Shown here: piece after piece, positions 6,290-51,100 of the stretch | How the letters are laid out: the number at the start of each line of letters is the position of its first letter | Position numbering within the stretch: the stretch's first letter is position 1 | Origin: Protonemura montana | Taxonomy: Eukaryota; Arthropoda; Insecta; Plecoptera; Nemouridae | Length of the DNA: 64,000 nt | NCBI GenBank assembly: GCA_947568835.1 | Contig: OX387604.1 | Coordinates: 4,196,001 to 4,260,000 of the forward strand | Reading direction: 5' to 3' | Program-made: the position numbers and the translations under genes | The notes under the pieces: generated by a model | What the model saw: the letters and a program-made list of their open reading frames with translations, nothing else | The model's database searches: none | What the model was told of the DNA's origin: nothing

Positions 6290-6830
6290 CAGTCGTTTTT
6301 AAAAACCGTGCATTTTAGCGCAGTGGTGAACTGCAATTTTTTTCACAAAAACACAAAGAGTGGCAAATAGAAAATTGTTTACTAGCTAAAATCTATTTTA
6401 CCAGCCAAAGATAAATTTTGCACCAACAATTATACATTCAAGAAAAACCTTTCCTGAAAGTTTACGCTAATTATTTGATCACAGAGCGTAGTTGTACGCT
6501 TGCAAAGAGTCAAATGTCCCTAAAAACTGTGCATATTAACGCATTGGCGAACAGTGGATTTTTTTCTCAATCATTTAAAAAGTGCCAAACATAGAAGTTT
6601 GCACCAGCCAAGATTCATACAAGAAAAACTCTTCCTGAAAATTTCAGCTAGTTATTAGAACATGAATTATAGTTATGAATTTCTAAACTCTCTGTTGTGA
6701 GCAAAAACCTTGCTCTTTTGACGCTTGGGTGAACGGTGGATTTTTTTTTCTCATGAACCTGTAGAGTACCAATGAGTAAATTTTGCAACAGTCAACACAC
6801 ATCTACAAGCAATGTTTACTACAAATTTTG
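6290..6830 (+). repeat. R2 element, three diverged tandem units
   Basis: Units begin near 6290, 6520 and 6700. Each has a GTGCAT or TTGCTC word, then GCxxTGGxGAACxGxGGAT or its decayed form, a T-run with TCxCA, and AxAGTGCCAA or GAGTACCAA. The first two also share CAxCCAAxAT, ACAAGAAAAAC and TTCCTGAAA. The minus-strand copy at 3135-3262 is the same element. A shorter match (GGCCGGTGCAAA) occurs near 7584. There is no coding potential, and the class is unknown. Confidence 0.55.
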
Positions 6831-7115: not shown

Positions 7116-9200
7116 GTAAAAAACGCTGAACATTTTTAAATAATCTGAGATTTGAATGTCTTTTTTTTTTTAAGTGAGCCGGTTTGATGTGGAATGATCA
7201 ATATAGAAGAAGCAGATGGATATATCAAAGGAAAATATGCCGCTTTGTTTGTCAGGCTCTATTAATAAGATAAGAAACCAAAAGATGCACTCTCGGGGGT
7301 GAATAGCAACGATCATCAAGTTCTCAGGTTCCGGTATTTAAGTCGCTTTCTGTTTCTCAACACCTTGTCTCTTGACTGCAAGACAGTGCTTCTTGGCATG
7401 TGCTTGACCAAGCCGTGCCGCTGACTTTGCAGCCAATAAGCAGACATTTTTCAGTCACGTGATAAGCGAAAAGTTCGGCCATTTTGAGCTCAAATGACAC
7501 ACCTCCTGTCTCTCAAAATCTCTAGTCTCAACTCTTCAGGCAATTTTATTCGAAGTCATTTGATTGCTTACCTAGAGTTTTGTGGCCGGTGCAAAGTTTT
7601 CAAAACTGCAAACTTTCTGAGTCCAGAATTTATTTTGCGAAACATCATATTTTATAAAAAATAAACACAATTTTTCGCAACATTTCTGTAGCGTCTTCGA
7701 CCAACGCCATTTTTTTCATAAAAAATGCTGCATTATGAGACCAATGAATTGGAAGAAAATGGCAACACTCAACGGTAATGCATCAATACTAATGCAAGAA
7801 CATGATTTTTTGTACGTGTTCCTATTTCCAGCTCGAGAAAACGTTTTTATATTTAGTTTTTGCATGCACCCATTGTGCACAACACAACGAGAACACAGCG
7901 AGAAGAGCGGCAACTGACATTTAATTTGCAAATTTTATCTTCGTATTCCTCATTCCCGATGATGAATTACTCGGAAATCATAGATCTTATCAAACATCAA
8001 ATCTGAATGATTGTCCTTTGCCACCCTCAGCAACCTCGATAGAACGTTTTTTAGCACATCACAAAATAAACGTACTATCGAGGCCCTTTGTCAGTGAGTC
8101 AGTGGGTCCCTAGGTTTGGGTGAGAATGTTGAAAATTTGACTGGTCACTAAAGTGGCTGGTGGTCACAAGGTGTTCAAAACGGACTCTGACCTTATTCAT
8201 ACATAATATATATATATATAAAATGATATATATTATTTTATTACAGCTGAAGCCAACGAGGCACTGTGAGCAGTGTAGCGGTGTGAGCAATATAGAAACT
8301 ATTTTGTTTGAAAAAAAAACAATTTCTTCTGGAACGGCAAAAAACACACGAATCCGGTAGTTTAGGAAGACAAAGGGTCAGTAAATATGAAACGATAAAA
8401 ATAGTGTTTTGTTCCTTGGATCCGCCAGAAAGAAAGGAAGCCACTTGAAACAAAAAGGAAACCCTAAATGACTGCAGATCTTTTTGATAGTTTTTAGACT
8501 CATGTCTACTTGATTTATCCTAAGCACTAGTTTTTACAAAAACTATTTGAAATGGGTTTTGAATGCTAAGTAAAGGACAACTAAATTTCCCGAAGTTTCG
8601 TAACATGTACTAGTTACTTCTTCAAGGGCTAGAGCAGTCCGGACAATTTTCCGATAACAAAAGAACCACATAAAATTATAAAAAGTACCTAGTTCACGCT
8701 TTCTAAATGCATTTAAATAAAATAATCAGGGTCAATAACTCAAAAACTAATGTATTTTGTATTTTCTGAAATAAAATCCCGAACACATTGGCGTTTTTTA
8801 CTAACCAGCCAATTATGTGTAAGGAAAAAACGCCAATTTTTCGAGGTTGTCCTTACGTTATGTGATACAAACAAAATTTCCTTGTTCATTACGTTTAGTT
8901 CTTAATCTACTTATCCAAATATTTTCTTTTGGATTCTTTGTGCTGACTTCTGTCTCCTTACTGATATTCTCTATTCCATTTTTCTGTTGTAAAATTGTTA
9001 CAAATTGTAACTATCATCTCTATTGAAGTTATTGAGTTGTTTCTTAATTTCCATTGCTTCTCTGATTTTTCTAGTGAATTTCCTATCATCTCGACATAAA
9101 ATCCTTACCGTGTCTATTTTAATGTGGTATTCAAACTCATTCCCGTGTTCTGCACAAGCTGATTAATTCAAGTGTCTTTGTTTTTCCCCAACACTGCAGA
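7116..9200. other. Non-coding AT-rich stretch
   Basis: No recognisable gene. An (AT)n run lies near 8208-8235. Short ORFs on both strands overlap each other and resemble nothing. Confidence 0.45.
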
Positions 9201-9206
9201 TCTGAT

Positions 9207-9248
9207 AAAAAAAAAAAATATATATATATATATATATTTTTTTTTTTT
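9207..9248. repeat. Perfect 42-bp A-(TA)n-T palindrome
   Basis: Twelve A, nine TA dinucleotides, then twelve T form an uninterrupted palindrome able to extrude a hairpin. It probably grew by microsatellite expansion, or it is a scar of a TA-targeting element. Confidence 0.75.
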
Positions 9249-9842
9249 GGTCACCTTAGCTGTCATAAAAACGCCAACTTGTACCCATAATTACCAATTA
9301 TCAACTGGGCTGCACCAGTGCGTGTTTAAAACATGCCCTATGACGTCATTGCACTGGTCCCATGATGAACTGCTCAAACCCGATCAGGCTGTCTCTGTCA
9401 GTCCATGTATTTGTAACCATTGCACCGCCAATCATTTAAAAGCAAGAACAATTTCTCGGGATTGACACGAGAGCGAGCATCTTTACCAGCCGAACTGAAG
9501 CGAATGCTGTACTGGGACAATGTAACATGCCCAGCCGTACAGCCAGATTGCCTAGACGTGAAAATGCAATAATAGTGAAAACTAAGACAGTAGTTTCTTG
9601 AAAGATGAGTTACATTTGCACAAGAGTAATTAATAAAATTCTAGTAACTTACCAGGGGTGCTAGTGAATATGCGCATCCAAGAAATCTCAAGCCAGCCCT
9701 TCAGACATTGCGTAACACAAGATTTAAGAAAAATATGGTAAAGACGAGTGTTAGGAACTATATTAACTTGATGCGAACCGCGGATAGATCGCTTTCCGGT
9801 GCTGGGTACCTCCCCTGGGCGGCTCAGTGTGAGGAGGGGCGA

Positions 9843-12654: not shown

Positions 12655-14204
12655 TTAATTGGCTACTTTCACGAACTCTGCGTTCTCGTACCCACGGTGA
12701 ACGAAGGATGTGGCGACTCCTTTCCTGTCGATCGCTCGGACTCGGACGAACAGGAAGGCTGCGACCAGACAAGCTACCACCAAAACCAGCAGAAGCATCA
12801 CGAGTCCAGCCACGAAGCTAGGCACGCTCATGCAAATGTTCTCGGCGTCGGCGGTGCTCGACGACTGGATCACCACAGTCTCGTTGTTGACGGCGCCATT
12901 AAGTGCGAAGTTGACATCCCCGGGCGACACCACCTGTATGATTCGCGATGTATTTACGTCAGTCATCTCCTGAGCCTCACGCTTGTAGATTCGAGTAACA
13001 ACCACGGTGGGACTCCTTCTCCTTCGCGCTCCTTGCAGCTCGACATCGACGGACCGCGGGCGTCCTCCAAGTGTGGACAGGTTGCTGTCGATCTCGTCAA
13101 CAACGCCTCCCTTCCTCTTGACGGTAGTGTACAGGCTCTGGTGTCCTGGCAGTGGCGGCGGCGGCAGGTGAATGTCGTTGACGTTGTTATTGTTGTTATT
13201 ATTGTTAACGTTGGCGTTGGCGTTGGCGTTGGCTGGTGTGGGCGGCGACGAAGGGTTGGGTGGGTTAGATGTGGATGTTTGCGCCAAAGGAGCGGGAACA
13301 ATGTCGGGCTTCGGCTCTGAGTACGCTCCGGATGGTCCTGAAGGATGACGGGGATCGGGGAAAGCGGGCGCTCCGTATTCCCCAGAGGGTGGTGGTCCGT
13401 ATTCAGCGTGGAGATTTCCTCCCAGACCCAAGCTGGCACCGCCGATCTGTGGGGGTCCGTATTGATCTCCAAGCCCCAAGTTTGGCGCTCCGTATTCTTG
13501 GCCCAAGCTTCCTCCGCATTTCGGTTCAGGGCAATGATACCTACACACTTGAATCACGCACTGGAAGTGCACATTCATCGAATCGGGGAACTTGAAAGCC
13601 TGGAAATATGCGTAACTGACTACAGACGCTGAGGTACCGAAGTTGGTCATCTTCTGGAACTTGGACATGATCTTTGGGCGTACGACGCAGCCGTATTGGT
13701 CGACCAACTGGATAGGAGCGCGCTTGCCGTCGTGGGCGACGCAGTTACGAACGAGCATGTCGAACTTCTTCTCGTCGTCTTTGATAGCAAGTACCATTGT
13801 CATCGTCTGTCCAATCTTCACAATTCCAGTAACCTCTGAAGCCCACGGTCCTTTTCCGACTTGAATCTGCATCCAGCATTGCAAGTTGTCTCCCAGGAAG
13901 TTGGCGGTGACAGCGTGGAGCATATCGACTTGGAATGGGCGGAAGGTGACTGCCTTCTCGTAGAAGTCGTACCACGTGCATCGGAGCTTCCGGGCCTGGT
14001 CCCATACCTCCTGTACGTACGGGTCGTACTGGATGATGATGGTATTCTCCACGTAGCTGCCGCTAGGGGTCGGTCCTCCGTAGCCTCCAGACTGGTGGTT
14101 GGCAGACGAAGACATGCCGCACGAGTTCAGGAAGATCTCGAAGGTCGCGCTCAAATAGCCTGTGCCAGGCTTCAGATGCACGCAGTGGGGGTCACTGTAG
14201 AATC
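12655..14204 (-). CDS. dyl: dusky-like coding exon 3 (most of ZP domain to stop)
   Basis: The acceptor is TGTCCACAG before GATTCTACAG. The exon completes a split glycine codon (G103) and runs 1,550 bp to a TAA at 12655-12657. It encodes residues 103-618: most of the ZP domain, the linkers, the RRRR site, the membrane helix and the tail. Most of the domain lies in one exon. Confidence 0.93.
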
Positions 14205-17200
14205 CTGTGGACACGTGACACTCATTAGGTTTGCTTCCGGTACTGTTTAAAGACTTGCTTGTAAATGTGCATGTAGAGTGAATCTACTATGGTGAGATGA
14301 GACATATTTTTACAATGTAAAGAAACCGAGTAGGCAGAGCTAAGATTAAACATTTTCACAAAAGTTTTGGTTTTTCCCTGTTTTAAATTCAATCAAAATG
14401 TCCTGAATTAAATTACAAAAAAAAAAAATGGAATCTGGTATTATTGCATTTAAAAAATTACAAAGATTTTGAAATAGCACAGGAATGCTTAAAACAATAC
14501 ACATTGCTTTGGTTGACATGTCGCCATATGTTATGGCGACTTCTTTTGCGTACCCAATTTTGTATTTGTTGATTTATCTAGACAATTTTTAGCAAACGTT
14601 TCATTGGGCAACATTATTTTTCGTTTCAAAATTAGGCCTAAACGGTCAACAGAACCCTGCTTCTGGGAGATATTTTTACTTCGATTCGAATAGGATAGTA
14701 GGCATAATTGTTGTCAGAATAATAATACCGAGAATCAAGGCTTCAGTTTCCTTTTAAAACTTCTAAAACTAATTTAAACCATTCTTAGTTCTACTAATTA
14801 CTATAGGTACTCGTTATACCTTTGCTGAAGATCATTCCATAGAAGGGTCGGTCAAACTCAATATTGACCCTCATGTGAGTCTTCTCACACTGAACTTGCA
14901 AGTGCTTGATCTGGGGCATATCCGGGGTGGCAAGGGGCCAGGGGTCGTCGCCACCTCCCGGACCAGGAGGAGGCCCATAGACCGGCGCCTGCAAGGGGGC
15001 ACCATAGACTCCGCGGTGTTCCAAAGGGAGCGAAGCAGAGTCGAGAAGAGGTGCGTCACCGACAACCCCCTAGAAAAAATAGTCAAATTATTGTTAGAAA
15101 ACTTGCGAAGTTGCGGGTGTGATTTTTATACGATGCTAGTATCTTGTAATAAAAAACGCCAAGGCATCCTGTATTTTTCTTAAAGTCTACACTGCGGTTT
15201 CATTATTAGTGCGCAGCTTTCAATAAAACCAACCTAAATTTGTCATACAAGGTTAAGCTACAGGATCGTGCGATAGTAGGAATTAATATTTAAAAAAAAT
15301 TATCACCGTTTATTTTTCATTTGATGCCTATCGGTAAAATTGCAGAGATGTCAAATAAATTTAAAGTTATTTGGGTACTGTTTCTTTAGACTCGCCCATC
15401 AATTCTCACGGATTATCATTGATGGTTTATTTTCAAACTTTTTTGCCCTTTTTTCAAACTTATCTACCGTGAAAGATCGAAACGAAATGTAAATAAATTT
15501 ACACCATCTATAAAAGTTGCTTAAAATACGAAGCGCCAGAAAAAAACGGTGAAAAGATTTTTATCTAAAATTACAAGTTCGATTCACTTATCCTTCAAGA
15601 CTATAAATTATAAATTCGAAAATTCTCATTGATTTTCAAATGTTTCATGGCCGAAATCTAGGTAGAAATAAATGCGTAAAACAGTTCGTGACTGTTTTTC
15701 TTCATGTTTCTCGACGAAAAACATGGAGAAAGTTTTTGAAGTGAATTCAGTGAGGCAGAACACCAGTGCTTCACCGGTGTAGCACGGCGGTCAAGGATGG
15801 CGATCCTCGAAAGCCCTTGCCCTTGAATGCCACACACCGGCCCAAGTACCGGCACAAACCTTCCAAATCACTGCCTGCCACCGCCTGCTATTACGATCGC
15901 AATGCACTAATTTTATAATTTATGTGTGTGTGCACTGGCCATTTACTGGAATGAAAGTAGGTATCGTGGTCAAGTTAGCCTAAAATACCACAATACTCAG
16001 CTCCGATACATAGACTACTGGCTAGTCATGAACTCGATTCAACCGACTGGCACTGGCATTGGCAATGGTAGTAGAGAATAGGGAACTAACTTTCATCAAG
16101 GTCTGCTCGCGTTCACAAACCACAATAATGACCCAGCCTTAGCTATTTTATTACACCTTGCTTGCCCCAAAGAAACAGATTAAATGAGATGACATCGCCA
16201 GTTTTATCTGATCTAATAACCCCGTATGAATCCAATTACCGAAAAACATCAAATTTTTTTTTGAAAATTTTAAAAATGTTGCGATTGACTCATCACCTGA
16301 TCGCATTCTCAATATTTCAAGCACATGCTTTTTTGTTATTTCATTTCACACAAGAAACAGCTATCTAGCTTCCGTAGTAAGTGTGCCCACATCAGGTAAG
16401 TAATAATCAACACTTGGGCTAGATTGGAGATATCACGTATTATACCAACTTTATTGCTATCGTATTTCCTTTTAATGACTAATAAATATATATCTTAGAT
16501 CTTATTCGCCTTCTCGAAGTGATTAAGGTCGGATTTGATTGCTCGGGGCGGAATGAACTTGTGAAAGGTATCTTCATTAGAGGAGCTTGTTTAGTTTATT
16601 TATTAAGCCTACTGCATTGCACTGGGATTGAGGGGCCTCAACATTAGCCAACTAGCACCATACTATTCTACTAGGTATCAAGGTGTGGTCTACCATAATT
16701 GCAAGGCACTTCTTAATTATCCAATTTTTTTTTCCTAAGCCTAAAGGTAATGAATGAGATATATCTTGTGCAAAGTAGGTGGCCTTGGCATTGCTACTTA
16801 CAAGTGCCAGTGACTTCGTAAAATTACCATAGAACGTGTAAGGTTCATTCATGATATTGCGACACTCTGAATAGGAAGCTAAGAAGGCTGCTAAAGTCAG
16901 TCAGGAAGGCATCATAGTTGAAGTAGAGTGATCTAAGAATTTTAGACTAACCTGAATGAAACTTTATTAAGCACATGGGTATAGAGAAAATAATTAATAT
17001 TGTTGGGTCGGCTCTTTCGCACGTTTTGCTGCTACAATGGTTGGCCTGAGAAAACTTACATCTCGATTTTATAAGGTGACATCAATTCGTCTGTATAATG
17101 TACCTGCGTGAACGCGAAGAGATTTTTGTTTACATGAATTGGTACACATATTATTAACATGTGAGATAATAAAAAGCAGAAAACGAAGAGAAAGAACAGA

Positions 17201-36091: not shown

Positions 36092-36490
36092 AGATGATTG
36101 ATTGATTGATTATTGGGGTTTAACGACGAATTTTTTTGACAACGGGTCATGTAGTACTGGACTAAGGGTGTCAGTGAATAAGTGGTTGATGATGAGGATG
36201 GTGATGAACCTAACCTAGTCTGGATGGGTGGTGGGGAAACCTGGTGCCGGCACGTAGCCTACTCCTATCAAAGAGCACCTAGGAGACCACCGGCTTTACG
36301 TCCCTCCCGAAGGACGGTACAAAGCAAAAAGAAGAATTCCTCCACAAATCCATGCTGTCGAGAGGTTGATAAGCAAGGTGAGTTAATTTGTACAAACTTT
36401 CATCCCTCCAACTTCTCTCCCAAACGGAACTGGTCATGTGTATGATAGTCAACCATCTAATACCTAATCAGGTGCCTAAGATCACTTGAT
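36092..36490 (+). repeat. R1 dispersed element, near full length
   Basis: It starts with (GATT)n and GGGGTTTAACGACGA, then TTTGACAACGGGTCATG and CACTGG-like text. The body carries GTGCCGGCACGTAGCCTACT, GAGCACC, CGTCCCTCCCGAAGGACGG, TCGAGAGGTTGA and GGTCATGTGTATGAT. There is no ORF of its own, and no RNA Pol III boxes are obvious inside the body. Confidence 0.75.
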
Positions 36491-36860: not shown

Positions 36861-37293
36861 ATTGATTAATTGATTGTTGTGTTTAACGACGCAATGTTTT
36901 GAAAACGTGCCTTGTGGCACTGGTCTAATAGTGCGGTGAATGAGTGGGAGGATGATGGTAAAACTTACCAAGCCTAGAAGGTAGAAGGAGGGGAGGTGAA
37001 ATGGCACAAATCTTCCACTTGTCGAATACCACCCATCCAAGCGGTTAAATTCGTCCCTTCCGAAGGACGGTTCAACTCGAACAACAGGATTCCTTCACAA
37101 ATCCATTCTATCGAAAGGTTGATAAGCAAGGCGAATGAAGTTGCTGTACTAACTTTCATTCCTCCAACCTTTCTCCAGATCAGAACGGATCATGTGTATG
37201 ATGGTCACCTCTCCAATGCCTGACTAAGCGCAGTGTTAAATAACTTCGGTGAACTTACGTGAACTGGTGTTTCCTACACGCCAAACCGTTCGG
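36861..37293 (+). repeat. R1 dispersed element, full length
   Basis: A second copy in the same orientation ~370 bp downstream. It has the head GTGTTTAACGACGCAATG and the tail GGTGTTTCCTACACGCCAAACCG. An internal stretch is missing compared with the 47.7 kb copy: the CCGGTGCCGG...GAGCACC block is replaced by unrelated text. Confidence 0.75.
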
Positions 37294-38474
37294 AATTGCA
37301 TACAAACTAACTAGCGCTATCAATGAGTCACATAAAAAAGTGATGCTGTTCATATTATACTCTCGTCATAAATCATACCACTGAGTATTTACAGTGAAAT
37401 TATTTCGGTTAAAACGATTGATTAAGCGGCTGAACATTGAGTTCAATATCCGTTTCAAGTGGAAACATGTTATCTGTGATTTGCTTTGAATACACAAGGT
37501 ATCCAAGAGCGCCACAACGTGAAAACTGAATTCCGCTAATGAGTTAATTGCTCATTTTTGTTATATGAGTAAACCTAACACATATTACATCATTTGATAT
37601 CATAATTATGCAAAGAGTCATTGACAGTCTCTACACCTGACTATACTCTCTTTAGCGTTAAGAATCTAGATGGGTTTTACAGGAAACAAGCCCACCTGAT
37701 GTTATCCGTGGGCCTAAATGTCAATTCCATGGTATGTTTTGTGAACAGCAATTATGCATAGCATCGAAGCTTGGACACGGATTGAGTCGTTATGTTACTT
37801 TTCGCTAATTCCCAGTAGCAGCAACATTTGTAAGTGCTCAAAACCTCTTTCCATCTTAAAACGAAGTGAAGTATAGAGAATAAGCCTTCTCTAGTAACTT
37901 TTTCTGAATACCCGTGTACTACAGAAGCTAAATCGTATTACAGCAGGGCGATTACCTAGCCTGGAACCTGCAGTTTCAACACACACACACACACTCATCT
38001 TGCACTTGCACTGACACATATCAGCTGGAATTTGAAAACAAACTCATGCACTGCGCATTTTCTCAACCCTTGTGACCGTCAGTCGGCTTGTGGATTCGCA
38101 ATGGTATAGACGCATGTACTTTTCGCCGTGCGTATAGCTTTTACAATGTAAGGCCGTTTACTCCGGGGCGTGTGGTACTTATTATTTGATATATACGTGT
38201 GACAGTTTTCTAAAGTGACGAAATATTATTTTAATCTTTTGGAATTATATTGATGTACGATTGCCATTGAAAGCTGAATCATCCCAGCTGAGTACTAGTG
38301 CAATTAAATTCGTGCATCCATCTAGTTCGTTTGGGTCGTTTCCATACAACTATGTGATGTTTCTGTGGTTTTGGAAAGGCGATGTTTGTGCATAATAGTG
38401 TCGTTTTGTAGTAAATTAGTGTGGCTAAACTTGAAACAAATACATACCGCTGAAATTCTGAAACATAAACCACG
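37294..38474 (+). other. Upstream region of the cullin-like gene
   Basis: I find no convincing TATA box or splice acceptor next to the ORF. A (CA)n run lies near 37979-37993. The ATG context is CCACGATGT with A at -3. The 5'UTR probably lies in the last 100-300 bp but cannot be delimited by eye. Confidence 0.35.
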
Positions 38475-41400
38475 ATGTCTTCTAAACACGTCGCTAAACG
38501 TAAGTCTCCAGAAGATATCTTTGACGATATGAACCGATCATTTAAGCAACAGGCTAACTCACTGCAAAGAAGTGCTGCGGATGTCCTCGACTATATCGAA
38601 AGCATCGTAAAGAATTGGATCAGCGCAAATGATAAACTTTCTGAATACCTTTCGACCCTTCCTACCAACCAGCGCGAACCTGCGTTCAAGAAAATGCACA
38701 AGATTTGGCAACGTCATATGATCGAAAGAAAGCTCAAGTTTTTCGAGAAAGGATTCATTCAAATGCTGGAGGATGATTGTCAGTTTTGTTTATCAAAGTG
38801 CTTCCTCGTGATGCAAAGTGTTGAGATGGGACTTGCTAATATACCAAGCATGTTCGGTGATTTCATTAAACGCGAAGCAATATTAGCTATATCTGGACTG
38901 TCTGGTATTGACCACTTGGACTTCCAGGATTTTGTTACGAATCTGCTCGCTTTGAGAAATTACTTCTCTAAAATGGCGGAAAATTGTTTCCTCAGAGACG
39001 AGTCCATGTTCATGGCAGTGTTAACAGCATTTCACAGCGTGCTAAATAACAAAGACGAGCCAACCAAGGCCCGTGGGCCAAAACTTTTGGCGATGTACTG
39101 GGACAGCTGCTTGAAGAAGAAGAATGCAGCTATCGAATCCGGAAATCTCATTCCTGCCAGCTTGAAATTATGCGCGGTATTGTACAATGGACCCGAATAT
39201 GCTGAAGAAAATTTTAAATTGCTTTTTCATCGATTGATAAATGACTGCTGCAATTACGATAACTTAGAGTTGGGGCTTCTGAAGATGTTGATTGCAGCTT
39301 TGAATGCACCAAACAATGATCTTCTGGGTAGAGGAAAGCGAGCTTTGGAAGACATAACATTCAAGTTCAGCCTTGACGAAGCGTACCAGCTGTACAAAAA
39401 AAAATGTAAAACACATGCGATAGACGGCGTCTCCGCCACATTCCTTCTCCTCCAGGACCAACTCTGGACACACGTAGCTCTTTTAGACTACGAATCGGAG
39501 TGCGTGCTGCCAGATTTTTGCGAGGCATCAATAACTCACTTCACAAAGTTCTGGACCGTGTACACTAAAGGAAAAAGTCTCAAGTGGATGCTCCACTTAA
39601 GCACAGCCGAGGTGGACATACATCTCTCAGAAACGCCTTGTACTGTGAGAGTAACTTTGTTTGGCGTTGCTATCTTGTACTGCTTCCAGGATAGGGATGA
39701 AATGAGTCTCCAATTGATTAAAGAAAAAACTCGAATGAAACCGTTTGTTTTGATACAAGAAGCAATGCTGTTAATCGACTTCGGTTTGCTCTACAAGAGC
39801 ACATCTGGTAAGCTGACAATGAGTGCAATTTTGACACTTAACCGAAAATTTCCCGAAGAGAGAATCCGCTCTGGTGTATTCTTTTCAGGAGAGAAAAATT
39901 TAGAGGTGGAACGGCAAGCATATAAGAGGTTAAAACTTACTGCGGTACGAAAGATTGATCGCGCTGCCCAGTGCAAGGAGCGTCGCAAGAAGGAGCACCT
40001 AGAGCTACGCCATCCGAAAATGACGCTGAATCAGATATCTGTGCCTGATGAAGCACACACACCTGCACCACCTGAACCTAATTTTACGCTGTCCTCAACT
40101 CTATCGGCCCATGGACCTACTGCTGCAGGTGATTCTCAAACCGTGCATGCCACAGAGAGCGTCAAGTCAGTACCTTCGGTGGATGCCGAAATTCCAGAAA
40201 ACATGAAGAAGAAGTCTGCCGTTAAGCAACCTGTGAAAAAAAACATTGGAGCAAAGATTGGTGAGCCGAAGGTCGTTCCTCAACATGACCCATCCCGAAA
40301 ACCGCTACATGAAACAAGATCTATTCCAAGCGAACCGAATGACAGCTATGTTGGTGATCCCATTGGTAAAAGAGAAACAAATTTGCAAGAAACCCTGAAT
40401 GCGTTTCATGATCTGTCTATTTCAAATGTGATAGTACCAACTGTGATGCTTGAGAGCCTTACCACGATAGTGGAGAAGGGTTCTGACATTAACAAGGCAT
40501 CAGAGAATCGCATTCAAACGTCGACAGGCACCGTTAAAAAATGTTCTGAGGTAAACATTGCGAACCCTAAAGCATTACATGAAGAGATACCTCAGAAGTC
40601 ACGCGGAGCCATTCCTAAAGTAAGCAAACCAGCCGGAGAAGAATGCAATACGCTCACTGCAGAGAAAGCCTCGAAAAATGTTTCGTCTGATGAGATGATA
40701 GCTTGCGAGCTCGACGGACCAAACTTAGTGCTAGAAGTTAACGAAATGTTCGACATATTTAACGAACTCCGCTTGGGAAAAAATGTGTTCGTCACATATT
40801 CTGCTGAATCTTTATGGTTGCGGGACGTTCTCGATATACCACTCGATGACGAGGTTTCTTTGGAGTTCTGCAGAAAGAACCTTGAAAAACACGTCGTCTT
40901 GGTAAGCATGTCGTTTTTAGAACTTCTAGCACAACAAGAGCGTGAACTAACTGAGGAATCAGGAGAGGAGGAACAGCTTAGTGAGCCCTTTGCAAATATA
41001 AAAACAAAATTGCAAGAAACCCTGGATGCGTTTCGTGATCTGTCTAAATCAAATGAAAAAGTACCAACGGAGACGCTTAAGCGTGAACTAACTGGAGAAG
41101 CAGGAGAGGACGAACAGCTATTTGTTAGTGAGCCCATTGCAAAAATAAAAACAAATTTGCAAGAAACCCTGGATGCGTTTCATGATCTGTCTATATCAAA
41201 TGTGATAGTACCACCTGTGACGCTTAAGAGCCTTACAACGATATTGGAGAAGAGTTTGGACATTAATGTGGCATCCGAGGCTCGCATTCAAAATTCGACA
41301 GGCGCCGCGAAAAATGTTTCGTCTGATGAGGAGCTAGCTTGCGAGCTCGCCGAAACAACCTTGACGCTAGATGTTAACGAGTTGATCAACATATTTAACG

Positions 41401-43223
41401 AACTCTGCTTGGGAAAGAATGTGTTCGTCAAAAATTCTGCTGAATCTATATGGTTGCGGGACGTTCTCGAGATACCACTAGAAGACGAGATTTCTTTGGA
41501 GTTCTGCAGAAAGAACCTTGAAAAACACGCCGTCCTGGTTAGCATTTCGTTATTAGCACTTCTCTCACCACAGGTGCGTGAAATAACTGCGAAACTAGAA
41601 GAGGAAGAGAGAAGAGGAAGAGACCAGAGAGAAATTCCTCACCACCACTATGTTACTCCCAGTATTCAGAGAGCAAAGTGTGTGTTCCAAGAAAATTTGC
41701 CAGAAACAGTCTGCATCGCAACCCAGCTTGAAGATCTTCCAGGTAACTCGGAACTAAAACCAAAGCGAAATTGTGAGGTACGACAGAGAGAAAACTACAG
41801 AAGCAAACCAAACATACAAAATGAAAATTTAGCAGGTGACTCAAATGTCACACCTCCAAAATCGTTCTCGCTGCCATCTGCAAAGACTTGCGAGTCTGAA
41901 AACCATATCCCCTACTCCAAGATTTTCCAGCCACTGGCTGCTAGCAGGTTCTCAAAGCCTAAGTCCTCAAAGTCAAAGTCTCGCAAAGAAACGAAGTTTA
42001 TGGATTCCGTGTCCGAGAATCGCACAGCCGACAAGATTACCCACACAGATCCTTGTGCAAACAGTTTAATAATCGAAGGCAACAAACACAAAACTCGGTC
42101 TGAGAGTTCCATATTCACAAAAGAATGTGCATTGTTGGACAATACACCCTCAGCACCTTATTGGTCTGAAGATGAACCACTTCCAAAGGAGACCCAGAAA
42201 AATTGCTGCGAGCCGTTTTGCCACTCGAGTCACTCGAGGCAGAAACCACAGTACTTTGAAGAAGGAAACTCGGAGTCTCGAAAATCGGTCGAGGTGTTCC
42301 GTAACGAAGAGCCATACTCTGAGGATGTTGCGAGCAACTCCAGCCTCCCCATCACGACGCTCCATTTGGAAGGCAGTGAAATATGCTTCCCAGGAATGCC
42401 CTGGGATGCCCTGCCTTGCCCCATGGTACGCAGGCGTCACCCTATTCTGCAAAAGAAACCTCTTGCAGAAGGGGAGTCTGTGGCGGAGTCGAATAAGATT
42501 CAAGCAATAGAGAAGATTCAAGTAAACGAAATTCCATCAATCGAGAAGATTCCAGCAATCGAGAAGACTCCAGTTATCGTTTCTCTGGTTCCCCAGGCGT
42601 TGGGGAACTATCCGTCTACAAATCCACCAGAGAAGGGCGCGACGGCAATGGAAAATTCTGAAAAGGTGGACACTTCCACCATGGATGAGGATCTAGCTGT
42701 GAAGACTACTTCTGAGCCACCTGAGATTCGTTATCCAGTACTGGGACTTTCCCTGTTAGGAAGCTGTGTTATGAGGAAGTGTTGCATTTTCAAGAAATGT
42801 GGTTCACCTCGAAAACGTTCAGCTGCAGGAGGAGGTTCCGCACCAGCGAAGTATTTTCCGTCGTCGAAACGGGGCATATTCGCAAAGATTTCAAAACTTA
42901 TCAAGATCTCCACACTATCAAACAGTTCCGTATCGGAGAAGAAATCCACGCTATCCGAAAAGTTCACATGCACCAAGGTTTCTTCTCCGTCCTCTCCGCT
43001 GACACCAGTAGAGAAAACAATGTTCTCTTCGGCGGATAGTTCCTCAACGGTGAAGAGTTTTGAGGTGGCGGCCAGAGATTCCGTGGCAGCGTTTCCATGG
43101 CCTTCCGCACCGGAGAATGTGATCCCATGCCCTGTTTGCGATGAGACAACCTGCCCAACAGCTCTGCTCCGACGTCGGCCCCAGCATCCCAGAGTCCAGG
43201 AGTTAAAGAGGGAAAGAATCTAA
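38475..43223 (+). CDS. Divergent cullin-like protein with giant repetitive C-terminal tail
   Basis: One uninterrupted 1,582-residue frame. Residues ~105-170 resemble the end of the cullin-repeat region (IFGD-type helix, FVTNLLALRNYF). Residues 170-310 follow the cullin core (FLRDESMFMAVLTAFHSVLN, KLLAMYWDSCLKKK, EENFKLLFHRLIND, FKFSLDEAY). Residues 320-440 follow the region that pairs with the RING subunit (LLLQDQLW, TKFWTVYTKGKSLKWMLHL, VRVTLFGVAILYCF). Residues 453-510 look like the linker to the neddylation segment (LNRKFPEERIRSG, ERQAYKRLKL, AVRKIDR). Normal cullins are ~750 residues with three N-terminal repeats, an IVRIMK-type Nedd8 lysine and a winged helix. Here the N-terminus is short, the Nedd8 motif is degenerate and the winged helix is absent. 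From ~511 a Ser/Lys/Glu-rich tail holds a duplicated module (628-1037) and a final C-x2-C-x4-C at 1552-1560. Role as an active ligase scaffold is doubtful. A decoy or structural role is only a guess. Confidence 0.82.
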   Translation: MSSKHVAKRKSPEDIFDDMNRSFKQQANSLQRSAADVLDYIESIVKNWISANDKLSEYLSTLPTNQREPAFKKMHKIWQRHMIERKLKFFEKGFIQMLEDDCQFCLSKCFLVMQSVEMGLANIPSMFGDFIKREAILAISGLSGIDHLDFQDFVTNLLALRNYFSKMAENCFLRDESMFMAVLTAFHSVLNNKDEPTKARGPKLLAMYWDSCLKKKNAAIESGNLIPASLKLCAVLYNGPEYAEENFKLLFHRLINDCCNYDNLELGLLKMLIAALNAPNNDLLGRGKRALEDITFKFSLDEAYQLYKKKCKTHAIDGVSATFLLLQDQLWTHVALLDYESECVLPDFCEASITHFTKFWTVYTKGKSLKWMLHLSTAEVDIHLSETPCTVRVTLFGVAILYCFQDRDEMSLQLIKEKTRMKPFVLIQEAMLLIDFGLLYKSTSGKLTMSAILTLNRKFPEERIRSGVFFSGEKNLEVERQAYKRLKLTAVRKIDRAAQCKERRKKEHLELRHPKMTLNQISVPDEAHTPAPPEPNFTLSSTLSAHGPTAAGDSQTVHATESVKSVPSVDAEIPENMKKKSAVKQPVKKNIGAKIGEPKVVPQHDPSRKPLHETRSIPSEPNDSYVGDPIGKRETNLQETLNAFHDLSISNVIVPTVMLESLTTIVEKGSDINKASENRIQTSTGTVKKCSEVNIANPKALHEEIPQKSRGAIPKVSKPAGEECNTLTAEKASKNVSSDEMIACELDGPNLVLEVNEMFDIFNELRLGKNVFVTYSAESLWLRDVLDIPLDDEVSLEFCRKNLEKHVVLVSMSFLELLAQQERELTEESGEEEQLSEPFANIKTKLQETLDAFRDLSKSNEKVPTETLKRELTGEAGEDEQLFVSEPIAKIKTNLQETLDAFHDLSISNVIVPPVTLKSLTTILEKSLDINVASEARIQNSTGAAKNVSSDEELACELAETTLTLDVNELINIFNELCLGKNVFVKNSAESIWLRDVLEIPLEDEISLEFCRKNLEKHAVLVSISLLALLSPQVREITAKLEEEERRGRDQREIPHHHYVTPSIQRAKCVFQENLPETVCIATQLEDLPGNSELKPKRNCEVRQRENYRSKPNIQNENLAGDSNVTPPKSFSLPSAKTCESENHIPYSKIFQPLAASRFSKPKSSKSKSRKETKFMDSVSENRTADKITHTDPCANSLIIEGNKHKTRSESSIFTKECALLDNTPSAPYWSEDEPLPKETQKNCCEPFCHSSHSRQKPQYFEEGNSESRKSVEVFRNEEPYSEDVASNSSLPITTLHLEGSEICFPGMPWDALPCPMVRRRHPILQKKPLAEGESVAESNKIQAIEKIQVNEIPSIEKIPAIEKTPVIVSLVPQALGNYPSTNPPEKGATAMENSEKVDTSTMDEDLAVKTTSEPPEIRYPVLGLSLLGSCVMRKCCIFKKCGSPRKRSAAGGGSAPAKYFPSSKRGIFAKISKLIKISTLSNSSVSEKKSTLSEKFTCTKVSSPSSPLTPVEKTMFSSADSSSTVKSFEVAARDSVAAFPWPSAPENVIPCPVCDETTCPTALLRRRPQHPRVQELKRERI
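40356..41585 (+). repeat. Internal duplication in the cullin-like tail
   Basis: Residues 628-825 and 886-1037 are two copies of one module: NLQETLxAFHDLSISNVIVP, SLTTIxEK, ASExRIQxSTG, KNVSSDE, IFNELxLGKNVFV, SAESxWLRDVLxIPL, SLEFCRKNLEKHxVLVS. A third partial copy (839-869, KTKLQETLDAFRDLSKSN) lies between them. The first copy has ~44 extra residues in its middle. Nucleotide similarity is high, so the duplication is recent. Confidence 0.88.
42500..42580 (+). repeat. Short in-frame IEKIP-type repeats
   Basis: Codons for IQAIEKIQ, IPSIEKIP and IPAIEKTP occur in succession with an ~18-bp period inside the cullin-like ORF. This is a small tandem repeat in the disordered tail. Confidence 0.75.
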
Positions 43224-43243: not shown

Positions 43244-43312
43244 TTAGTTGATAGAGCACCCGAACGGCAATTGGGAGGTCTCGGGTTCGTGTTCCGGTTC
43301 GGTTGCACATTT
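43244..43312 (+). repeat. tRNA-like SINE head just after the cullin-like stop codon
   Basis: It contains TAGTTGATAGAGC (A-box), an anticodon-like arm CCCGA-ACGGCAA-TTGGG with a 5-bp stem, and a T-arm TCGGG-TTCGTGT-TCCGG (B-box). The acceptor stem does not pair and the D-arm is shortened, so it is a tRNA-derived element and not a tRNA gene. It begins about 20 bp after the stop codon and would lie in the 3'UTR. Confidence 0.6.
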
Positions 43313-43380
43313 TTACAGTCTAACTCCACTTCTATTTGTCAAAATACTCTCTTTCGTTAAAAACATGAGCCGACAAAAAT

Positions 43381-47737: not shown

Positions 47738-48155
47738 CTTGCCTAGCTGTTTTGACAACTGGCCCTGCGGCACTGGTCTAATGGCGTCGGTGAATGAGAG
47801 GCTGATGATGATGATGATGATAAACCTAGCCTAGCCTAGAAGGGAGGAGGGGAAACCCGGTGCCGGTATTTAGCCTACTCCTGTCGAAGAGCACCAAGGG
47901 GACAACCGGCTTAACGTCCCTTCCGAATGACGGTACAACTCGAACAGCAGGATTCCTTCACAAATCCATGCTGTCGAGAGGTTGATGAGCGAGGTGAATG
48001 AAGTTGCTGTACTCACTTTCATCCCTCCAACCTCTCTCCCAAACAGAACTGGTCATGTGCATGATGGTCGGCCATCCAATACCTTACTCAGCGCAGTGTT
48101 GCTTAACTTCGGTGATCTCATGAGAACCGATGTTTCTAACTCGCCAAACCGTCCG
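47738..48155 (+). repeat. R1 dispersed element fused to tRNA-like head
   Basis: Begins at GCTGTTTTGACAACTGGCCC without the GATT/TTAACGACG head seen in other copies. It then follows the full consensus (GGCGTCGGTGAATGAG, (ATG)n, GTGCCGGTATTTAGCCTACT, TCGAGAGGTTGATGAG, GGTCATGTGCATGATGG) to CGCCAAACCGTCCGG. Confidence 0.75.
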
Positions 48156-51100
48156 GTTTCTATGGGGACTTGAGGAAATATAAGTATTTGTAATATTGAA
48201 TATCTGAATATTATATCTGAATTTTGAAAGTGCAATAAATTGCACCAGAAACTGGAAGATACTTTGAATCTAGCTGCAAGGGTAAGTATCGAACAGTATT
48301 CCAGAACCTTTGTCACGTGTCAAATCAAGGAAATGATTCGATGTGAATTCGTTTCTCTGCGGTATTTTAGCAATTTGAACACTCTCTCCCGAGTTGCAAC
48401 AAAAAAAAAACTGTAATTTCCTCAAGGAATGTTGGCTTTTCATTGAAAGTTTTGAGGGCCTAGCGTTTACCCTAGTTTACTTACCAAGTGGCGGCTTAAG
48501 ATGTTCGAATTCTTAACAATCCTAACAATGCAGCTGGATTCGATTGAAATTGAATCATGTACGCTATCATACAATTGTTCACAAACATAATAGTAGGACC
48601 TTCACGCTAATCATAACAAAAAAAATGTGTTTCTTGGGAAGATAGAATAAATTATACGGTTTGAACTTTATATTAGATTCAGTGTTGTAATGTTTTGAGT
48701 CATGATTCTTGAGAAATACTTTTTAAATTGTTCTTTTTTCTCGAACCGACGACTTTGATTGTAAATAATATGAAAGCAATTTGGTCAATGCCAAGGTCTA
48801 TGATCGTCCTGAAATGCACTTATTTTTCGTACTTTTCAATTGTATTCAACTCTTAGCGCAGAAAACGATTTTATGCAAATTTGGACTGAATGTTTTTTCC
48901 ATCGTGTTCTTTTTCTCATCATCGTAACATTTTAAAACATATTAAGATTTGAAACGAGGGCAGTATTATTTTGTTCCCATGGGAAATAGGGACTCAACTT
49001 TTTTTTTTAATTTTTTATATTGGTTGTTCAAATTCAATTCTTAATTATATGATCAAAACTTTATCATAGTAATTAAGAAAATCAATCTATAACATGAAAA
49101 GAAATCCCAATAATGACACACGTTTCATTGCACGTGCTCAATTTTGACCGAAATTCATGCATCGTAAATACATTTCTATCATTAACTTATCGGAGAAAAT
49201 CTCTTCTAAAATCTGCTCCAATGAACTAGAAAGAATCTTTCAATTTCGGGTATTAAATTACAGGTAGGCTAGGAGTAGGAACATTTTACAGTATGAATGC
49301 CGACGAAAGTTTCAAGGTTGATGCAAGCTGCATGAAAATTATTCTTCAGTCGCGTTCCGGTCTGTTTCTTGTCTCCGTTGTCAGCTGAGATGTAGTGAGT
49401 TTGCATTTGAGTCTAGTACCTCTGGCTAACGAGCTTTCATACAAATCAATGTTCAAACATAGACCATGACCACTAAAATAAGGTCTCTCGTGCCAAGTTT
49501 TCAAACTTAATTCAATTAAATGTAATTGATGGTTTATTTTACTGAATAAGATGAGAATTCTGATTGCAATGACACTCACCTGAGAACTGTTTATGAAGGC
49601 AACAGATATTTTCTTAGGAAAATTGGTGTGATAAGTTAGTCATCTAAATCAGACTCAAAAAATATTTCGGATTTGCGGTTGGATGTCTTTAAATTCCTTG
49701 GTGCAAATAGAAATTTTTAATTGGAGTTTAATTGATTTTTTCTCTAAATTCACAGTATTCCCATATTTTGGCCAGGGTTGATAGATTCGCAATATTTTTC
49801 ATTTTTTATTTTTTTCTTGTGCAACCGATGAATGCGAAAAAATTTCGACGGTCGGTTGGGGAAGATTTAGTACCCGGCAACGTTTCGTAGGCTTACCATA
49901 CACAACCTACAAAATATATTAAACATAGACCACTCCAAAAGTGTATGATTATTTTCTTTGTTGCTAGAGTTAACCATTTCCCAAACTACCTACGGCATGA
50001 TTCATATCCAAGACATCTGAACCTTCTTCTAGTTAGCTAAACGAAACCCTGGAAGAGTTGTCCGTTTCTTAGCTGTTCGCAGGATCAACTGCGTGGATTT
50101 CATACAGGATCTAGATACGCCCAAACAACAATTCCAATCGACGAAAGCAGAAAAAAATGTTCTCGAATATAATAGCGACAGCAGGTCTGTCCCGCAATCA
50201 GGGGTTCCGTTGGCCATTTTTTCCTCCTTTGCTGGCGACAATCCTGCCTAATTCCAGGCAAAAGCCATGCAAACATTTGAAGGATAAATCGAACCGTATC
50301 GAACCGGGGCTGAGCTAAACCCTTTCTTTCCATCGTTTGGGCCAAATTGACAAAAAAGCTTTACCCCTGTCACTTCAGTTTTCACGCGGCCGCCGTTTCG
50401 GTCAGGTGCTATACGGAAATTGGCACTGACGACGCACGACCCTATGAATCTGTTGTCATGGAAATAATTAATTACTTCCCCTAATAGGAGTTGTGAAAAG
50501 TTCGAACATTTTTATTGGTAAAAAATATTTTTGCTTATTTTTTAGCACGTGAATCTCTGAACAGATATCACTTAGATATGCACCAAACATTCAATCAAAA
50601 TCGACGCTGCCAATTGACTGGAAGAGCACGAACAAACACATTTACACATACAAAGCATACAAGAAAATGTAGTTTGAATGAGGGTTTGCTTTGCAGGCTA
50701 CGTTCATCAGTATTTGAATCCTATCAGACAGTCCTACGTTCTAAGAGCGTTCCAAATGTTCCAAAATTTTCCAAAATACATTTTGAAACCTAAAAACTCG
50801 CTCATACCTGCGGTAGATAGCAAAAATTACACGATCTGTCAGGCTATATCAGAATATTCAAGCTACTAAACAAAGAATTCACTCATTGAATCGTTTATGC
50901 TTCATCGATTTTTTTTGTTTTTCAAAGTTGACAATGAAAAAAGCGATCTAAAAAAATGTTGGTAATTAAAATTGTATTGTCCTACACGTAAGGTAATTCG
51001 CATCTTCCGATAAAAAGTTTCAAGTCCTACAACCATACCTGAAGGTTATCAAAATTATAAGCAGTTTTGGAACTAAGCTCGTAACAAACAGCAATTGGGC

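Follow-up and report, generated by a model that had tools for sequence, protein, structure and literature searches.

Animals have, to our knowledge, a small and well-conserved set of cullins, in which departures from the layout of an adapter end, an RBX end and a NEDD8 switch are rare. The RBX-facing half of an ordinary cullin holds the RING protein, and other parts take adapters and NEDD8. In CUL7/PARC (CUL9), a cullin core is fused to CPH, DOC or RBR domains. CACUL1 is a human gene which, as far as we know, has no tail like that of the gene described here. The available text of a survey of the family describes five cullin groups across animals (CUL1-CUL5), a diverged extra cullin specific to Drosophila (CUL-Dros) within a broad CUL1/CUL2/CUL5 group, Plasmodium cullins without a Cullin_Nedd8 domain, and the CUL7/PARC fusions (Marin 2009, PMC2785787). 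In the accessible part of a Drosophila testis study, CG11261, presumably the CUL-Dros gene, is among the cullin transcripts. The available text on CACUL1/CAC1 describes a presumptive cullin domain, co-precipitation with Rbx1 and Cul3, and attenuated ubiquitination of Nrf2 (PMC4523873).

The Protonemura montana gene analysed here, gene A, is most like animal CUL2 (and CUL1), with a collinear cullin-homology match and CUL2 as its neighbour in the tree. It differs from CUL2 in that identity is only ~20%, CR1 is not recognisable, the WHB/NEDD8 domain and the acceptor lysine are missing, the coding region has no introns, and a tail of ~1,100 residues is present. By description, it resembles CUL-Dros in being a strongly diverged additional cullin, possibly limited to one lineage, that falls outside the principal cullin classes of animals, although no long tail is mentioned for CUL-Dros in the available text (PMC2785787). 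CACUL1, as described in the accessible part of its paper, offers a precedent for a non-canonical, cullin-like regulator, and the Plasmodium cullins and CUL7/PARC, again by partial description, are precedents from other lineages in which the NEDD8 domain was lost or the architecture became large. Given CUL-Dros, CG11261, the Plasmodium cullins and the CUL7/PARC fusions, a fast, lineage-limited cullin duplicate is nothing new in kind. Within the available portions of these sources, what appears new is a headless, NEDD8-less and intronless core joined to a tail of ~1,100 residues, present in two long copies and a tail-only one. A search of the open-licence literature found no paper on such an architecture.

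An intact frame with a cullin core

The window (the whole 64-kb stretch of DNA that was analysed, C16:4196001-4260000) belongs to an assembly of 258.5 Mb in 34 contigs; features are given in window coordinates on the plus strand unless marked otherwise. Gene A is by a wide margin the longest open reading frame of the window (38475-43223), and the runner-up, on the minus strand, encodes 519 aa. It starts with an ATG at 38475, ends with a stop codon at 43221-43223, and encodes 1582 aa without an intron in the coding region and without a single internal stop over 1582 codons. A preliminary description had proposed this intact frame, a cullin core that extends over the part which in ordinary cullins contacts the RING subunit, and a remainder unlike known cullins, and all three proposals were borne out. 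It had also placed the cullin match at residues 100-510; the profile search did return a significant match to the Pfam Cullin family (PF00888, E 3.6e-37; score 128.9 bits, with the cut-off at 33.2), but the matching span was aa 18-459 (38526-39851), aligned to profile positions 182-620 of 620. Its view of the surroundings as repeat-rich did not hold, since the neighbouring DNA was just moderately repetitive in the searches made. It had noted neither the loss of the adapter-binding and neddylation parts, nor the small family to which the gene belongs, nor the contrast with the intron-rich ordinary cullins of this genome. A phmmer search of gene A against the PDB found 38 distinct sequences at E<=1, with CUL2 chains at the top (best E 1.4e-19) and CUL1, CUL4 and APC2 at weaker scores. 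Gene A is also more than a chance frame, since its core and tail recur in another intact copy (copy B, below). The gene is real and intact, but as a copy of the scaffold gene of a ubiquitin ligase it is strongly altered.

We then compared A and B with six aligned cullins, to each of which they are 18-20% identical, using columns that are hydrophobic (or invariant) in all six and approximate domain borders. In the alpha/beta region that forms the RBX groove, as aligned to CUL2 (approximately aa 291-396, 39345-39662), all 24 hydrophobic columns were kept in A and 23 in B, and in the WHA-like end of the match (approximately aa 397-465, 39663-39869) 21/21 were kept in A and 20/21 in B. The four-helix bundle kept 20/24 (A) and 19/24 (B), and CR2b-CR3 kept 34/41 (A) and 33/41 (B). 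Only 6 of 33 columns in A and 7 of 33 in B were kept in the N-terminal part, and in the WHB region 4/15 and 2/15. Invariant columns were altered more freely: 6/11 were kept in the RBX-groove region of A (5/11 changed) and 8/11 in that of B (3/11 changed), and 7/17 in the four-helix bundle of each. Judged from sequence, the RBX-facing half is retained in both proteins.

The predicted proteins A and B lack the WHB/NEDD8 domain and the acceptor lysine that it carries. WHB queries found nothing near either gene below E 0.6, and the same queries recovered the CUL2 control locus (CUL3 E 7e-9, CUL4 6e-7, CUL5 7e-6, CUL1 4e-12). PF10557 (WHB, Cullin_Nedd8) was not found at E<=1 in any of the proteins scanned with Pfam. 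Lysine 689 of CUL2, the NEDD8 acceptor, is replaced by alanine in A and B, at a position where the alignment is poor. A recognisable adapter-binding N-terminus is apparently missing as well. The cullin profile match begins at position 182 in A and 193 in B, which leaves the N-terminal repeats outside it, and no piece of the adapter-binding cullin repeats was found near A or B in the whole-genome family search. In a search for an upstream N-terminal exon, neither the N-termini of the five other genomic cullins (tblastn) nor a CUL2 query gave anything near A or B at E<0.05; this search is weaker than the WHB search, since the N-termini of other cullins reach the CUL2 locus itself at E 0.007-0.77. 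An in-frame stop lies immediately upstream of the ATG of gene A, so any additional coding exon would have to join within the opening codons, where the AG at codon 13 could in principle serve as its acceptor. A far-diverged exon spliced in from upstream is conceivable.

The tail (aa 466-1582, 39870-43220) matched no Pfam family at the cut-off; the best sub-threshold E was 0.088, while one copy of the tail module reached 0.086 and copy B 0.032. CPH, DOC and RBR domains were found by Pfam in none of A, B and C, and no substrate-binding domain was recognised in the tail by Pfam or by a profile of its module against the PDB. Internal comparison showed that the tail is partly built of repeats. One repeat of 192 nt occurs at 40349-40540 and, with 86% identity, at 41123-41314, and a partial third copy of 104 nt, covering its first part, lies at 40978-41081. 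A module of 300 nt occurs at 40668-40967 and, again at 86% identity, at 41304-41603, with Ka/Ks between the copies of about 1. The best PDB match of a profile of four module copies, TBK1 with an E of 0.18, was taken as chance. At the C-terminus, A and B have in common a motif CxxC..TxCPT..LRRRPQHPRVQ (aa 1543-1582, 43101-43220). Structure prediction for aa 1-515 of gene A, made without a deep alignment, reached a pLDDT of 37.4, and that for the tail module with its second copy 45.4, both too poor for a fold search. Among IMG/VR viral contigs, a search for relatives returned 11 pattern matches, none of which was a relative.

Copies, origin and placement

A genome-wide family search found 41 cullin stretches, which correspond to five intron-rich genes, two intronless genes and a weak match on C4. 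By spliced alignment, the intron-rich genes encode nearly full-length proteins with 9-15 predicted introns each; the query was human CUL2, and some very short predicted introns are probably spurious. The cullin at C16:18.58 Mb scored 1889 against CUL2, and the remaining four, which we take to be CUL1, CUL3, CUL4 and CUL5, scored 687-1118. The second intronless gene, copy B, lies 0.45 Mb from A (C16:4682455-4686471), encodes 1338 aa in an intronless coding region, and matches PF00888 with an E of 1.3e-39 over profile positions 193-620. A and B are 64% identical in the core (462 codons) and 43% in the tail (814 codons). A third relative, copy C, is a tail-only frame of 380 aa on the opposite strand (C16:4694893-4693751), so that one chromosome carries both long copies and the tail-only one. 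The 5' flank and start context of copy C match those of gene A, and its first residues weakly resemble residues 8-22 of gene A (E 4.9), which suggests that copy C probably lost its core by internal deletion.

The DNA flanking A and B is homologous for 0.64 kb on the upstream side and, in separate blocks, for about 3.9 kb on the downstream side, indicating that the two copies arose by DNA duplication. The upstream part (37838-38474) is homologous to the flank of B, and the 450 nt next to the ATG can be aligned with copy C too, with identities of 72% (A-B), 68% (A-C) and 63% (B-C). In 40 random noncoding pairs aligned in the same way, the mean identity was 47% and the maximum 54%; the identity expected for the 5' flank is 59% at dS 0.6 and 50% at dS 0.83. 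The best-conserved block of 30 nt (38319-38349) is identical at 24/30 positions in A, B and C. This conservation hints at a retained promoter or 5' UTR. Separately, a repeat of ~90 nt was observed at 43244-43335, just past the stop of A; beyond the stop of copy B it occurs twice, once inverted, with 83-86% identity (around 6540-6630 and around 7206-7293 of L037).

The intronless state of A and B, as against 9-15 predicted introns in each of the other cullins, points to an origin by retroposition before the DNA duplication of A and B. The ancestor would thus have been a retrocopy of a cullin mRNA that was later multiplied as DNA. At gene A, we found downstream A-runs of just 6-7 and no poly-A tract; at such divergence, a poly-A tract and a target-site duplication are expected to have eroded. 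In a tree built on core columns, A and B stood beside CUL2 with support of 89/94, and their stem measured 3.5 changes per column. Grouping them with CUL1 (p-AU 0.134) or CUL5 (p-AU 0.106) was not rejected, and grouping them with CUL3 (p-AU 0.019) or CUL4 (p-AU 0.018) was disfavoured. The long branches make the placement uncertain. A and B appear to be a cullin paralogue that has diverged strongly and belongs somewhere in the CUL1/2/5 group.

Selection on the core and the tail

Selection was assessed with pairwise codon models between A and B. The core gave an omega of 0.506 (2dlnL 20.55 against omega 1), and aa 1-383, which lie outside a tract of low Ks, gave 0.519 (p 5.9e-5); wrong-frame controls on the core DNA gave 1.47 and 1.28. 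For the tail, three choices of reliably aligned blocks gave omega values of 0.83, 0.89 and 0.89, in no case significantly below 1. A whole-tail estimate of 0.715 (2dlnL 10.81) was set aside as unreliable, as it includes blocks with A-B nucleotide identity down to 0.32, and the A-C comparison (omega 0.665, 2dlnL 6.95) rests on an equally doubtful alignment. Between the tail-repeat copies within gene A, omega was 0.98 (bootstrap 0.54-2.13), with a second estimate of 1.11-1.21.

We also simulated the neutral drift of one lineage 2000 times with the observed transition share and counted the stops that arose. The expected mean was 6.0 stops in the core (7/2000 simulations stop-free), 14.8 in the whole tail (0/2000) and 7.8 in the reliable part of the tail (1/2000), and no stop was observed in either A or B. 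Gaps in the protein alignment of A and B number 2 for the core and 25 for the tail, all in frame by construction because both frames are open. Taken together, the stop-free frames and the omega values of core and tail indicate that the core of A and B is under purifying selection, whereas the tail frame is maintained while its sequence changes almost freely or under mixed pressures. The earlier argument that so long a frame implies selection therefore stands for the core (omega 0.51-0.52); for the tail it stands as regards the frame, but not the amino acids, which evolve near neutrality.

The low-Ks tract covers aa 384-463 (39624-39863), where 40-codon windows had Ks of 0.05-0.23 and A and B have exact runs of 39 and 32 nt in common. 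Other core windows were mostly at 0.4-1.3, the neighbouring windows 324-383 were at 0.22-0.30, and a few tail windows were also low (0.24-0.30). The tract looks like the result of gene conversion between A and B across 0.45 Mb. With silent sites so alike, the high A-B identity of this tract is by itself no sign of constraint, and the A-B conservation of the RBX region was dropped as an argument for it. The match of the aa 384-463 region to ordinary cullins is independent of the conversion-like tract.

Possible roles of the altered cullin

Our preferred reading, which we put forward tentatively, joins these observations: A and B would descend from an old, diverged CUL1/2/5-group retrocopy which, without its adapter and NEDD8 parts, still binds RBX and acts as a competitor or as an unneddylated scaffold. 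It is drawn from the anatomy: in ordinary cullins the RING protein is held by the very parts that A and B keep, and adapters and NEDD8 are taken up by the parts that they lack. The same anatomy is what speaks for the decoy or regulator role suggested in the preliminary description. The product would bind the RBX RING protein through the alpha/beta groove; this step is suggested by the kept hydrophobic columns, but a core only ~18-20% identical to any cullin and the changed invariant groove columns (5/11 in A, 3/11 in B) speak against it. RBX would then be occupied, yet the usual assembly and switch-on would be impossible, so that the product would either tie up RBX or serve as a scaffold that is not neddylated, and the fast-changing tail may bring clients or add other contacts. 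A more specific version, which we consider unlikely, is that the free RBX-binding half brakes cullin-RING ligases, with the tail as a targeting arm shaped by conflict and copy C as an antagonist or partner; the conflict behind the repeat-built tail could be with a pathogen, with a transposon or between the sexes. If the RBX half alone is indeed under selection, the locus would be a natural test of what that half does and of whether competition for RBX regulates ligase supply, with the tail-only copy C as an internal control.

The near-neutral tail can also be read in another way, to which we assign a smaller but still appreciable probability: the genes may be duplicates with germline-biased (e.g. 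testis) expression, under weak constraint, with a minor or redundant scaffold role and a disordered filler as tail. Omega near 1 both in the reliable tail blocks and between internal tail copies, and the 25 tail gaps against 2 in the core, are as such duplicates would predict, and CG11261 is among the testis transcripts in the available part of the Drosophila study. Neutral filler would hardly be expected to keep its frame, however, which stayed stop-free in 0/2000 simulations for the whole tail and 1/2000 for the reliable part, or to retain a C-terminal motif common to A and B. If this reading were correct, the locus would be another case of rapid cullin duplication as in Drosophila. A decaying retropseudogene that is open by luck, or an assembly artefact, would account for the missing introns and the near-neutral tail, but two independent intact copies, both stop-free and with a core omega of 0.5, make this very improbable.

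The remaining readings accept the genes as functional and differ from the preferred one in what the product does. The retained RBX-facing half, and a large tail that is present in A and B and alone in C, would suit an active though unusual cullin-RING ligase, RBX-bound and independent of NEDD8, whose tail takes substrates directly. We regard this as improbable, because the tail has no recognised substrate-binding domain and unneddylated cullins are normally weak. It is also doubtful, and marginally more so, that A and B are cullin-fold proteins that have left the ubiquitin system, with core and tail in some other structural role. The extremely long stem (3.5 changes per column), the loss of the WHB domain and the tail-only copy C would fit such a departure, whereas the purifying selection on the core and a hydrophobic pattern best kept in the RBX-groove and WHA regions argue against it.

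Several other features were observed in the window and the genome. A ZP/cuticlin-like gene with a transmembrane-like C-terminus lies on the minus strand at 12655-14214 and probably also at 14794-15069 (Pfam matches to ZP-C at E 7.3e-10 and to the cuticlin C-terminal domain at E 2e-8); a further upstream exon is guessed by eye from the list of open reading frames. An interspersed repeat occurs at 36134-36465, 36868-37293 and 47750-48156, and also in L038 at 8815-9799. It contains a 5S-rRNA-like stretch at 48038-48156 on the minus strand (RF00001, 46.1 bits) and looks like a 5S-headed SINE family. Among six contig ends inspected, the start of C16 carried the arthropod-type telomere repeat (TTAGG)n. 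Repeats of other kinds were seen at three of the remaining ends, another tandem array at a fourth, and the fifth read N.
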